Assembly (NCBI RefSeq): GCF_000147695.2
Contig: NC_015958.1
Location: 1,156,501 to 1,220,500, forward strand
Direction: 5' to 3'
DNA: 64,000 nucleotides
Source of the DNA: Thermoanaerobacter wiegelii Rt8.B1
GTDB lineage: Bacteria; Bacillota; Thermoanaerobacteria; Thermoanaerobacterales; Thermoanaerobacteraceae
The position numbers were made by a program, and so were the translations under genes. This document shows, in pieces, positions 2,070-53,288 of the stretch; the stretch's first letter is position 1; every line of letters begins with the position of its first letter. Below the pieces are notes generated by a model. It was not told the DNA's origin. It ran no database searches and saw nothing but the letters and a program-made list of their open reading frames with translations.

Positions 2070-2110
2070 ATGAAAATGTACAAAAGCAAGTAGAAGGAGT
2101 GTATACACAA

Positions 2111-2434
2111 ATGAAACCAGTAAATGTCACAGATGAGACTTTTGCAGAGGAAGTATACAGTTCTGATAAACCTGTTTTAGTAGATTTTTGGGCTAAATGG
2201 TGTAGACCCTGTTTAATGATGGCACCAGTGTTAGAGGAGTTTGCAGAAGAATATGCTGATAAGATGAAAGTTGTAAAACTTGATGTAGATGAAAATCCTG
2301 TAATTGCCTCTAAGTATCGAATTATGAGCATTCCTACAATGGGGGTTTTTGTAGAAGGCAAAATGGTAGATAAAGTTATAGGCTTTATGCCAAAAGAGCG
2401 TTTAGTTGAAAAATTGTTAAAATATTTGAAATAG
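2111..2434 (+). CDS. trx: Thioredoxin
   Basis: A 107-residue single-domain thioredoxin with active site WCRPC (Cys31, Cys34) and the cis-proline loop SIPT. It probably supplies CcdA with reducing power, as third gene of this operon. ATG 2111 is chosen; an in-frame GTG at 2099 touches the AGAAGGAG ribosome site and is too close. A second, double-domain thioredoxin gene lies at 54459-55130, so redox carriers are duplicated in this genome. Confidence 0.92.
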   Translation: MKPVNVTDETFAEEVYSSDKPVLVDFWAKWCRPCLMMAPVLEEFAEEYADKMKVVKLDVDENPVIASKYRIMSIPTMGVFVEGKMVDKVIGFMPKERLVEKLLKYLK

Positions 2435-2441
2435 GTATTAA

Positions 2442-2473
2442 AAAGGAGTATCTTTTGTTAGAGATACTCCTTT
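2442..2473 (+). repeat. Left target duplication of miniature element A (terminator hairpin)
   Basis: A 32-bp hairpin (stem AAAGGAGTATC / GATACTCCTTT) directly after trx. The same 32 bp recur at 2740-2771 with two loop differences. This left copy has lost its T-tract, because the element begins at 2474 straight after CTTT. Confidence 0.85.
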
Positions 2474-2739
2474 CAGTTTGTTGACAAAGTAAAAAAATAT
2501 TCAAAGGAGATATTTTGCATCGTCGCTCCGATGTTCCAAAGCGACAAAACTAAAGCTCGACCTTCAGGTTCCGGCAGGGTACCGGGCACAATCGGCATCC
2601 ATGCCTTAAGGTGCCCGCCTCCGCCATCCTTGGCTTCGGCCCTGCCTTCACCCTCGGTCTTGCTAAGTTTTGCTGCCGCTTTGTAACAAGTCACTCCTTA
2701 TGCAAAATATCTCCTTTACGAAAGTTTGTCTACAGGCTG
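2474..2739 (+). mobile_element. 266-bp miniature inverted-repeat element, copy A
   Basis: Non-coding element with imperfect terminal inverted repeats, CAGTTTGTTGACAAA on the left and, read inward from the right, CAGCCTGTAGACAAA. A perfect 18-bp subterminal inverted repeat AAAGGAGATATTTTGCAT lies at 2503-2520 and 2700-2717. The core is clearly richer in G+C than the host DNA. A second copy of exactly the same length lies in opposite orientation at 24664-24929. It has short open frames but no credible gene, so movement would need a transposase from elsewhere. It is flanked by a 32-bp duplication that is the trx terminator hairpin. Confidence 0.85.
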
Positions 2740-2775
2740 AAAGGAGTATCTTTTGCTGGAGATACTCCTTTTTTA
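2740..2775 (+). terminator. Right terminator copy after miniature element A
   Basis: Second copy of the 32-bp hairpin (2740-2771) followed by TTTT. It keeps the T-tract and is now the functional terminator for trx read-through across the element. It also lies against the 3' end of the convergent decarboxylase gene. Confidence 0.85.
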
Positions 2776-2783
2776 GTAAAACA

Positions 2784-4271
2784 TTATGCTATCACATTTA
2801 AAACTTGCCGGTCATTTACTACTTTTATATAATTTACTTCCGGGTCTTCGGTGCCTTGTATGCTTAAGTTAGCTTCTTTCATTTTATCTACATATTCTAT
2901 AATTTCTAATGTTATTCTTTCCCCTGGGCAAAGCACTGGAATACCTGGAGGATAAGCCATTAAAAACTCGGCACTTATTTGCCCTACACTTTCTCTTAGA
3001 GGTAGTGCAACAGTGGAGGAGCCAAAAGCATATCTTGGTGATACTACTTGTTCTGGTATTTCTGGTATATCTATAGGTTTCGCTATTTCAATATTTTCAT
3101 TGTATAATTCATCGCTTATTTCTCTTAAAGCCCTTAAGAGATAATCGACTTTTTCCTTTGTATCACCAATAGAGAATACACATAAAACATTATACATATC
3201 TGATAGTTCAGGTTGTATATAATATCTTTCTGCCAATATTCTCTCTAACTGATGGCCGCTTATTCCAAGGCCTTTAGCTGTTATTGTAACTTTTGTGGGG
3301 TCAAAGTCATAGGCACCATCTCGGCCAACAATTTCTTCACCAAAACAGTAGAGTCCTTTTATATTGTTTATCTCTTTTCGAGCGTACTCTGCTAATTCTA
3401 TTGTTTTATCTAATAATTCTCTTCCTTCTGTAGCCATTTGCATTCTTGCAACATCTAAGGAAGCCAACAATATATATGAAGGACTTGTTGTCTGGAGTAA
3501 ACTCATTACTTGTTTTACTCTATTAATATCAATTCTATCGCCTTTAACGTGAAGCATCGAGCTCTGCGTCATTGAGCCAATAATCTTATGTGTGCTCTGT
3601 GCACAGATATCGGCTCCTGCTTCCATCGCTGAAATAGGCAATTTTTCGTTAAATTTTAGGTGTGGTCCGTGAGCTTCATCTACCATCAGTATAGCGCCGT
3701 AGTCATGAACAATTTCAGCAATTTTTACTATATCCGTAGAAACTCCGTAATAAGTCGGATTTATTATTAAAACAGCTTTTGCATCAGGATGCTCTCTTAA
3801 CGTTCTTTCCACTGTTTCTGGGGTGACATTTAATGCAACACCGATATTTTTATCAATTTCTGGTTGCATATAAACAGGTATAGCACCACTTAATATAATT
3901 CCTGACGTTACAGATTTATGAATATTTCGAGGAACGATAATTTTTTCGTCTTCTCCCATTACGCTTAAAATCATTGCTTGAATTGCACCAGATGTTCCGT
4001 GAATAGAAAAAAAGGTAGCGTCAGCACCAAACGCTTCTGCTGCTAATTCTTGGGCATACTTAATTGGCCCAGTAGGTTTGTGCAAGCTATCTACTTGCTG
4101 AAACACTGTTACATCCATTGATAATACATTTTTACCCACAAAATCTAAGAATTTTTTTGCCATTCCCACACCTTTTTTATGGCCTGGCACGTGAAAAGGG
4201 ATAGTATTGTTATTTACATATTCCATTAAGGCATCAAATAAAGGAGTTTGGGTTTGATCTAACTTTTTCAA
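2784..4271 (-). CDS. Orn/Lys/Arg decarboxylase family protein (fold-I PLP enzyme)
   Basis: A protein of about 495 residues of the SpeA/CadA-like group III decarboxylases: a large PLP domain with the Asp motif DEAHG (198-202) and the Schiff-base lysine STHKIIG (Lys229), then the family's C-terminal domain with PPGIPVLCPGE. The substrate (arginine, lysine or ornithine) cannot be set from sequence alone; arginine decarboxylase is the usual annotation for this short form. TTG 4271 is chosen because the GTG at 4283 overlaps the AGAAGG ribosome site. The gene is monocistronic. Its leader holds an inverted repeat (4312-4355). Confidence 0.88.
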   Translation of the reverse strand: MKKLDQTQTPLFDALMEYVNNNTIPFHVPGHKKGVGMAKKFLDFVGKNVLSMDVTVFQQVDSLHKPTGPIKYAQELAAEAFGADATFFSIHGTSGAIQAMILSVMGEDEKIIVPRNIHKSVTSGIILSGAIPVYMQPEIDKNIGVALNVTPETVERTLREHPDAKAVLIINPTYYGVSTDIVKIAEIVHDYGAILMVDEAHGPHLKFNEKLPISAMEAGADICAQSTHKIIGSMTQSSMLHVKGDRIDINRVKQVMSLLQTTSPSYILLASLDVARMQMATEGRELLDKTIELAEYARKEINNIKGLYCFGEEIVGRDGAYDFDPTKVTITAKGLGISGHQLERILAERYYIQPELSDMYNVLCVFSIGDTKEKVDYLLRALREISDELYNENIEIAKPIDIPEIPEQVVSPRYAFGSSTVALPLRESVGQISAEFLMAYPPGIPVLCPGERITLEIIEYVDKMKEANLSIQGTEDPEVNYIKVVNDRQVLNVIA

Positions 4272-4311
4272 CGCATATAACACCTTCTTTCATAAGTTTT
4301 GGCTCAGAATA

Positions 4312-24071: not shown

Positions 24072-24638
24072 ATGAAAAAGCTAATTTCCTATAAAATGGT
24101 TGCCATATATTTGTTAGCTATATTTATAGGAGTGATGATTGGATATTTAATTAATGTTAAAGACAATGAAAAGCAAAGAACAGAAAAAAATATAACTTAT
24201 GAACAGAGGATTTCTTCTCAACAAGAAGCTCTTGCTAAAAAATTAATTTCCCAAGGTAAACTCATATTTGAAACTAAATATCTTGAAAATGGAGAAATAG
24301 TGCGTGAAGTTCAAAATTTAACCCCTTCTCTTTATGGGAAAAGCAAGGAAGAAATTGCAAAGATATATACTGGTTGGAAAGTTAAAAGTTTTGATGAAGA
24401 GGAAATAGTTCTCTACAGAGAAAAAGAAGGGTTGCCTGCAGATTATTATATAATTTCCAGCATAAATGGATATGTGGTTTTATTAAAAAGTGACGGAAAT
24501 GGCAATAAAGAAATTGTAGAAAAAACCGACATACCATTGGACAGTTTAACACCTTTTGACAGAGAAAGAGTGATAGAAAATATAATTACAAAAGACAAAG
24601 ATGAAGCATACCAAATATTGTCAAATTTAAGCTCTTAA
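24072..24638 (+). CDS. bofC: BofC-like protein
   Basis: A 188-residue secreted or anchored protein: one membrane segment (residues 8-27), a charged stalk, and a C-terminal domain with LYREKEGLPADYYIISSING as in BofC proteins, which control sigma-K processing in spore formers. The ruvCAB-queA-tgt genes follow, as bofC neighbours ruvA and ruvB in Bacillus. ATG 24072 follows CAGGAGGAG. The stop codon touches the terminator duplicated by miniature element B. Confidence 0.75.
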   Translation: MKKLISYKMVAIYLLAIFIGVMIGYLINVKDNEKQRTEKNITYEQRISSQQEALAKKLISQGKLIFETKYLENGEIVREVQNLTPSLYGKSKEEIAKIYTGWKVKSFDEEEIVLYREKEGLPADYYIISSINGYVVLLKSDGNGNKEIVEKTDIPLDSLTPFDRERVIENIITKDKDEAYQILSNLSS

Positions 24639-24663
24639 GTTCTCCTATGCTTTTAGGAGAACT
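24637..24663 (+). repeat. Left target duplication of miniature element B (terminator hairpin)
   Basis: A 27-bp hairpin (AGTTCTCCTA / TAGGAGAACT) right at the bofC stop. It is repeated without change at 24930-24956. This copy has lost its T-tract to the insertion. Confidence 0.88.
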
Positions 24664-24929
24664 CAGACTGTAGACAAACTTTCGTAAAGGAGATATTTTG
24701 CATAAGGAGTGACTTGTTACAAAGCGATAACAAAACTTAGCAAGACCGAGGGCGGAGGCAGGGCCGAAGCCACGGATGGCGGAGGCGGGCACCTTAAGGC
24801 ATGGATGCCGATTGTGCCCGGTACCCTGCCGGAGCCTGAAGGTCGAGCTTTAGTTTTGTCGCTTTGGAACATCGGAACGACGATGCAAAATATCTCCTTT
24901 GAAAATTTTTTAACTTTGTCAACAAACTG
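24664..24929 (-). mobile_element. 266-bp miniature inverted-repeat element, copy B
   Basis: The same length and sequence family as copy A, in reverse orientation. Ends are CAGACTGTAGACAAACTTTC (left) and, inward from the right, CAGTTTGTTGACAAAGTT. The 18-bp inner inverted repeat AAAGGAGATATTTTGCAT is at 24686-24703 and 24883-24900. It is flanked by perfect 27-bp copies of the bofC terminator, so this insertion looks younger than copy A, whose duplications differ at two positions. No gene inside is credible. Confidence 0.88.
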
Positions 24930-24962
24930 AAGTTCTCCTATGCTTTTAGGAGAACTTTTTCT
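24930..24962 (+). terminator. Right terminator copy after miniature element B
   Basis: The intact 27-bp hairpin followed by TTTTTC. It ends bofC transcripts that read through the element, and lies just before the ruv operon. Confidence 0.88.
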
Positions 24963-53083: not shown

Positions 53084-53288
53084 GAAAGATGAATAAAGCT
53101 GAAAAGCCCTGTGGTGTACGTGAGGTCCGGTGAAAGTTTGAGCCAACACCAATAATAAGGGAGCCTGGGCTTTGGCAGTGGAATATAGGCCGTCTTCGAA
53201 CGGAAATATGAAGCTGCCAAGAGGGCACCCACTTTGTGAGTCCGGGTTCAAAAACTACCGGGAGGCACGGCACTATGGGGTTTTTTTT
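53084..53288 (+). ncRNA. ssrS: 6S RNA
   Basis: The region between aspS and tcdA matches the place of the 6S-1 RNA gene (bsrA) in Bacillus. It has a closing stem GCCCTGTGGTG with CACTATGGGGT, a long rod with a large central bulge, an apical hairpin (CCGTCTTCGAACGG), and a T-tract end (GGGGTTTTTTTT, 53276-53288). 6S RNA mimics an open promoter and holds sigma-A RNA polymerase in stationary phase. Start and end are approximate. Confidence 0.82.

Follow-up and report, generated by a model that had tools for sequence, protein, structure and literature searches.

A non-coding MITE of Thermoanaerobacter lies between duplicated terminator hairpins and is probably mobilised by an IS1182-family transposase

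The trx locus and its two hairpins

The window, i.e., the whole stretch of 64,000 nucleotides of Thermoanaerobacter wiegelii Rt8.B1 that was analysed, contains a thioredoxin (trx) gene and a convergent decarboxylase gene. Between them is a 266-bp element, which is flanked by two 32-bp copies of the trx terminator hairpin. A second copy of the element lies further along the window. The features, in window positions, are as follows.

2099 to 2434, plus strand: thioredoxin gene, upstream of the trx terminator (PF00085)
2440 to 2444, minus strand: A-run, which is the T-run behind the hairpin for the convergent gene
2442 to 2473, plus strand: trx terminator hairpin on the left of the element, one of the two copies of the duplicated target; a single copy is present at the empty site in G006, G007, G001 and G002
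2474 to 2739, plus strand: MITE, 266 bp, non-coding, with ends CAGTTTGTTGACAAA ... TTTGTCTACAGGCTG
2474 to 2494, plus strand: left tip of the MITE, 20 of 21 bases equal to an end of the IS1182-family element of G007
2503 to 2520, plus strand: inner inverted repeat, left arm
2700 to 2717, minus strand: inner inverted repeat, right arm
2725 to 2739, minus strand: right tip of the MITE, CAGCCTGTAGACAAA on the minus strand
2740 to 2771, plus strand: right copy of the terminator hairpin; the T-run continues to 2774
2784 to 4283, minus strand: convergent Orn/Lys/Arg decarboxylase gene (PF01276)
24637 to 24663, unstranded: 27-bp hairpin target duplication, first copy
24664 to 24929, minus strand: second MITE copy in the window, 96% identical
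24930 to 24956, unstranded: 27-bp hairpin target duplication, second copy, identical; a single hairpin is present in G041, G001 and G007

The two trx hairpin copies are identical at 30 of 32 positions (94%), and each is a perfect 12-bp inverted repeat round 8 nt. This agrees with the first-pass annotation, which had placed the element exactly between two copies of the trx terminator and had equated the duplicated 32 bp with the whole stem-loop. The 18-bp inner repeat described there is indeed perfect, and the terminal repeats of the element are imperfect. As single-stranded DNA the element folds strongly (z -8.6 against dinucleotide shuffles), and it has no match in Rfam at the gathering score. 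The only open reading frames that overlap the 266 bp are of 51, 73 and 73 aa, so we regard it as a MITE without a transposase of its own. Elsewhere in the window, positions 53103 to 53285 of the plus strand match 6S RNA (RF00013, 115.6 bits).

We searched 10 genomes of the genus for the trx end and found the orthologous locus in six besides Rt8.B1. Five of these (G007, G041, G001, G006 and G002) have a single hairpin and no MITE, the hairpin of G041 differing in sequence, and the insertion at this site is common to G005 and Rt8.B1. Since relatives have one hairpin without the MITE, the trx hairpin stood once and was then duplicated. Empty sites with a single hairpin were also found for 8 of 10 further insertions, in at least one of the three genomes searched. 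Because an A-run precedes the left copy and a T-run follows the right one, the original trx hairpin looks bidirectional. The T-tract had been assigned solely to the right copy. This is correct for the plus strand and not for the minus strand, where the A-run serves as the T-run of the decarboxylase gene. Thus, each of the two convergent genes retains one hairpin copy with its own T-run.

Target duplications across the genus

Matches to the element number at least 45 in the Rt8.B1 genome, where some copies are split in two and the best 40 of 76 candidates were scored. They occur in at least 16 of the 41 genomes searched (Rt8.B1 included; at most 18 candidates scored per genome) and in 3 of 13 genera. 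Each of the nine Thermoanaerobacter genomes in this search has matches, G003 through divergent copies only. The matches outside Thermoanaerobacter are partial or divergent, and those in genus g2 have neither recognisable tips nor duplicated hairpins. At loci L128 to L133 of this genus, which belongs to the same family, the MITE core is present at 70-80% identity and, by eye, at one orthologous place. This core may be older than the MITE, or may be something else.

The sample fetched, which holds mostly the better matches, comprised 133 loci, some of them overlapping, and gave 105 copies with both ends, 99 of them with unique flanks. Left out of the counts were 18 copies from the MAG G006 and one distant hit (L133), which has no duplication. 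For two copies with an intron in the left tip, the flank upstream of the intron was used. The 80 copies retained represent 68 independent sites in 7 Thermoanaerobacter genomes. A duplication score of at least 10 is reached at 62 of the 68 sites, compared with 1 of 4556 mismatched pairs of left and right flanks, and these target duplications are 17-34 bp long with a median of 23. The other six sites score 5-9 (41 of the 4556 mismatched pairs reach 5), and by eye their hairpins are blurred by substitutions or indels. The expectation that other copies, too, would have a duplicated terminator in their flanks is thus borne out. None of the 68 sites has a short duplication without a hairpin, yet weak folding is seen in 4 of the 62 duplications (L009, L224, L226 and L244). 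Two divergent copies in G003 that are outside the count, L134 and L143, also lie between duplicated hairpins.

Two further observations concern single loci. At L143, a hairpin has an IS1182-type end on its left and the divergent MITE on its right, so that this terminator was apparently hit twice. At L014/L041, L015/L042 and L019/L043 the MITE is 327-331 bp long, with some 62 additional bases that lie close to element position 197-204 and are perhaps a nested smaller element.

The duplicated segments are hairpins by their folding. When the better of the two copies is taken, the folding energy is -7 kcal/mol or better in 58 of 62 duplications, compared with 9 of 856 random segments of equal length. 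The left copy alone reaches this value at 54 of the 62 sites, the right copy alone at 54, and both copies at 50. In 32 of 59 scorable cases the edges of the duplication coincide with the outermost base pair on both sides, and a further 10 have a single surplus base on either side. At L234 and L247 the duplication overruns the hairpin by 8-9 bp on one side, and L023 has a decayed stem. In the 4 nt beyond the edge of the duplication pairing remains near 0.5, and therefore the cut is not always where pairing stops; this residual pairing fits the presence of A- and T-runs. As judged from these flanks, the target is evidently a hairpin, mostly a terminator-like one, and a hairpin stands on both sides of the element after insertion. 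The first-pass annotation had proposed that a folded terminator is recognised rather than a short motif. The duplication does track the hairpin, as this would predict; the folded state itself is suggested only by the geometry of the sites, which points to recognition of a physically folded hairpin.

IS1182-family elements and a group II intron at the same hairpins

The presumed helper is an IS of the IS1182 family. Rt8.B1 has four full-length transposase genes of this family, which score 490-491 bits against a cut-off of 270 for NF033551, and the copy in G007 scores 498 bits (cut-off 270) and has PF05598, PF01609 and PF13751. Complete IS copies in relatives are 1560-1568 bp long, with a single transposase gene and terminal inverted repeats such as CAGACTGTTGACAAA ... 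TTTGTCAACAAACTG; the tips there are CAGACTGTTGACAAA and CAGTTTGTTGACAAA. When the MITE is aligned with the IS, one end agrees in 20 of 21 bp (E 1.2e-4) and the other less closely (81% of 21); beyond about 21 bp at the tip nothing convincing aligns. All four IS copies of Rt8.B1 lie between duplicated hairpins of 21-26 bp. Among 22 further IS1182 loci in the genus, both ends are in view in 13, all from G007 and G041, and 11 of these 13 complete copies have hairpin duplications of 19-32 bp. The two exceptions are L280, which has a 6-bp GTGAAG duplication and no hairpin, and L291, which has a hairpin on one side only. The MITE therefore shares both its target and its type of duplication with the IS, and, from this likeness of tips and flanks, is most likely IS1182-driven and mobilised in trans.

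Three genomes that bear the MITE (G005, G006 and G008) have no IS1182 match at E <= 1e-60, so that these genomes have either lost the helper or have one that escaped the search. A transposase match at 185590-186714, about 360 bp beside one MITE copy, was considered as a candidate helper. It scores 114 bits, which is below the cut-off, and was set aside in favour of the copies with 490-491 bits. At positions 764-828 of L102 (genome 333563-333627), two IS1182-type ends flank one hairpin next to transposase fragments.

We then place the duplicating elements within their family. Of 149 genomes drawn from the phylum, 23, including Rt8.B1, have the IS1182 family at E <= 1e-90. Whole-hairpin duplications of 20-35 bp, called without a shuffled control, are present at 8 of 28 loci from other genomes of the phylum. 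These eight loci come from five other families (G057, G172, G040, G073 and G104), and their tips are CAG-type except for GAG in G057. Two loci cut by the contig end, L330 and L332, have a hairpin on their one visible side. For the other 18 loci, the ends were found in 14, which have no hairpin duplication (0-9 bp; L334 has a doubtful 13-bp match without a hairpin), and were not located in L336, L337, L342 and L347. When 27 transposases are placed on a midpoint-rooted tree, the nine rows with hairpin duplication, together with L291 and the two contig-cut loci, all fall to the same side of one branch (support 100/99). On the opposite side are 15 rows, 11 of them assessable, and none of these duplicates a hairpin. 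Thus, the whole-hairpin duplications found among the sampled Firmicutes all lie to one side of a single well-supported branch in the IS1182 transposase tree. Since the duplicating members and their non-duplicating assessable relatives are now set apart on a single tree, the residues responsible can be sought.

Eight loci (L331, L333, L334, L341, L344 and L351 to L353) have tips near GGGGCTGT and no clear duplication. By eye, several of them appear to have short mirrored flanks. Such flanks without a duplication, e.g., GAGGG...CCCTT, are seen in some of the non-duplicating rows of the tree; they recall the hairpin replacement of IS1272 and might be of a similar kind.

The left flanks of the MITE copies L008 and L010 and of four IS copies led to a 655-bp ORF-less group II intron. 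RF02001, RF01998 and RF00029 of Rfam were matched in each of L113, L117 and L118. Rt8.B1 has 14 full-length ORF-less copies and 9 ORF-bearing relatives of this intron, and the reverse transcriptase of the one ORF-bearing relative examined matches TIGR04416 with 460 bits. By eye, a hairpin stands just before the intron in all 14 ORF-less copies and in all 9 ORF-bearing relatives. The group II domains, the reverse transcriptase and the insertion after a terminator hairpin together suggest a putative class C group II intron. In three of the ORF-bearing introns (genome positions 1111079-1116197, 673399-678520 and 1514419-1519539) the matched parts are about 4.5 kb apart, compared with about 1.25 kb in 686253-688161, and therefore some 3.2 kb is extra inside each of the three.

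Eight of the 14 ORF-less copies lie behind ordinary terminators. TTTGT stands just before the intron in six of them; the exceptions are L161, with TTTGT four bases further up, and L150, with TTTAT. The other six (L148, L152, L154, L155, L158 and L159) lie between a duplicated hairpin and the element, inside the tip of an IS1182 copy (four) or of the MITE (two). Here the hairpin is followed by CAG(TT/AC)TGT^TGAC, the sequence before the insertion point being CAGTTTGT in four cases and CAGACTGT in two. At both of the MITE sites, G041, which is of the same species, has the MITE without the intron, and thus the MITE preceded the intron at these sites. Among 10 genomes of the genus, the intron is found in such tips in Rt8.B1 (six cases) and in G041 (one case, an ORF-bearing intron behind a hairpin and CAGTTTGT, with one side in view). 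It is present in four of four IS1182 copies of Rt8.B1 compared with none of eight complete IS copies of G041. These junctions indicate that the resident group II intron has used duplicated hairpins with the adjoining tip CAG(TT/AC)TGT^TGAC as insertion sites. Two unrelated mobile elements have terminators as a common harbour, and one of them makes sites that the other has used.

Proposed mechanism, alternatives and known systems

The target duplications of DDE transposases are normally short and constant in length, and a DDE enzyme must join both ends of the element to two strands. We suggest, with a probability of roughly 0.8, that the element is a non-autonomous MITE which is moved in trans by an IS1182-family DDE transposase and whose ends are joined at the feet of the hairpin. 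The transposase would recognise the palindrome in an extruded form, either a cruciform or a hairpin. The two 3' ends of the element would be joined at the two 5' stem feet, which would adjoin in space at the junction though they are 17-34 bp apart along the DNA. Repair of the gap would then copy the hairpin, and this would produce a duplication of the whole hairpin. The agreement of its tips with those of the resident IS would let the MITE spread. Since the upstream gene keeps a hairpin with a T-run, such insertions should cost little.

A broader proposal, to which we give about even odds, is that one branch of IS1182 is a junction-directed integrase that reads the extruded hairpin and no particular sequence, so that the length of the duplication is set by the structure of the target and not by a fixed spacing of active sites. 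This integrase would also create landing sites for the group II intron, because a hairpin followed by CAGTTTGT^TGAC resembles the usual target of the intron (a hairpin followed by TTTGT^). By splitting the inverted repeat, the intron would immobilise the element.

Among the alternatives, the one that survives best keeps the same transposase and takes the target to be a hairpin on single-stranded DNA, such as the lagging-strand template or a transcription bubble, in place of a double-stranded cruciform; we consider this rather unlikely. Terminator hairpins could form on one strand and the same sequence outcome would be expected, but both ends have to be joined to two strands, and a cruciform presents both feet at once. 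Class C group II introns, which are reported just after terminators (PMC8919778), would accord with a target on one strand. We favour joining at both feet of the extruded double-stranded palindrome.

It is much less probable that the target is a short motif with A/T edges at the feet of the hairpin and that the enzyme itself accounts for the long duplication. Over the 62 sites, the sole sequence preference seen is that the duplication opens with A in 74% and closes with T in 81%. Six or more T within 10 nt at the right edge, or six or more A at the left edge, are found on at least one side in 55 of the 62 sites, compared with 8% of random 10-mers for T, which fits terminators as targets. Terminators with A- and T-runs have A/T feet anyway. 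A motif of this kind also sits poorly with duplications that range from 17 to 34 bp, and with mirror pairing that collapses on a frame shift of one base: in register the outermost positions pair at 0.76, and in each of the 24 shifted frames at 0.21-0.33. Thus, the feature common to the target sites is mirror symmetry, not sequence.

Homologous recombination or gene conversion between terminators, which could carry the element and its hairpin together, is more improbable still. In the MAG G006, many copies (L203 to L219) do share one same AGAGAG hairpin and a variable length of one flank, on one side. This pattern is confined to G006, whereas each site counted in the 7 other genomes is flanked on either side by a hairpin of its own. 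Since the shared flanks break off abruptly at differing points, we read the pattern as probable misassembly, and a composite transposon in G006 was set aside for the same reason. Finally, hairpins abut the tips of the element at nearly every site listed, as would be expected if they were a part of the element carried at both ends, but their sequences vary among sites and empty orthologous sites have that same hairpin as a single copy, which refutes this explanation.

How does the proposed transposition into terminator hairpins by an IS1182-family enzyme compare with what is known? ISfinder is said to give long, palindromic direct repeats for IS1182. A palindromic target has been reported for some IS1182 members, as cited in PMC5678879, and this trait is found here in four of four Rt8.B1 copies and in 11 of 13 complete copies from G007 and G041. 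IS1272, which is of the IS1182 family, and TnSha1 of Staphylococcus target hairpins without a common primary sequence (PMC4923244, PMC5678879). The TnSha1 hairpins A to E are terminators according to RNA-seq, and the hairpin is partly deleted (Furi et al., PMC4923244). Wan et al. describe newly inserted IS1272 without a target duplication, the IS replacing the hairpin, and draw duplication of the whole stem-loop as pathway b of the model in their Fig 13 (PMC5678879). The first-pass annotation knew of terminator-favouring introns and transposases but of no non-coding element with this exact outcome. The outcome is less novel than this suggests, because an IS1182-family element is a published hairpin targeter; what stands is that duplication of the whole hairpin is there only a branch of a model. 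The Thermoanaerobacter element thus has hairpin targets and a presumed IS1182-family transposase in common with IS1272 and TnSha1, but with these some or all of the hairpin is removed or replaced and no duplication arises, whereas it duplicates the whole hairpin. In place of the replacement seen for IS1272, the hairpin is found here twice after insertion and once before.

MITEs mobilised by IS elements are short and non-coding, have IS-like tips and occur in many copies, and all of this applies to the MITE described here. Such MITEs have a short fixed target, whereas this one duplicates an entire terminator hairpin, and, unlike theirs, its interior has no visible relation to the IS further in than about 21 bp. 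Insertion immediately behind terminators is reported for class C group II introns (PMC8919778, citing Robart et al. 2007) and is also seen for the Thermoanaerobacter intron; the difference is that 6 of its 14 full-length ORF-less copies lie at a junction made by another mobile element. IS elements that target REP sequences, such as ISPpu9, likewise have palindromic repeats as their target (PMC8450116). The REP target of ISPpu9 is one repeat family, however, and the Thermoanaerobacter hairpins are unrelated in sequence.

In the titles and abstract openings of the open-licence papers listed, we found no account of whole-hairpin duplication by an IS1182 element or a MITE, and none of a group II intron in IS1182 tips. 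Thus, the hairpin duplication is genuine and holds generally, and the known IS1182 family offers the best explanation for it. Its outcome is a variant that we have not found described; in the IS1272 paper it is drawn only as a model branch (PMC5678879). Besides the duplication, what is new here is the ORF-less group II intron between a duplicated hairpin and the element. Compared with the systems above, these sites provide a large natural data set for structure-directed DDE transposition, in which the length of the duplication follows the fold of the target.
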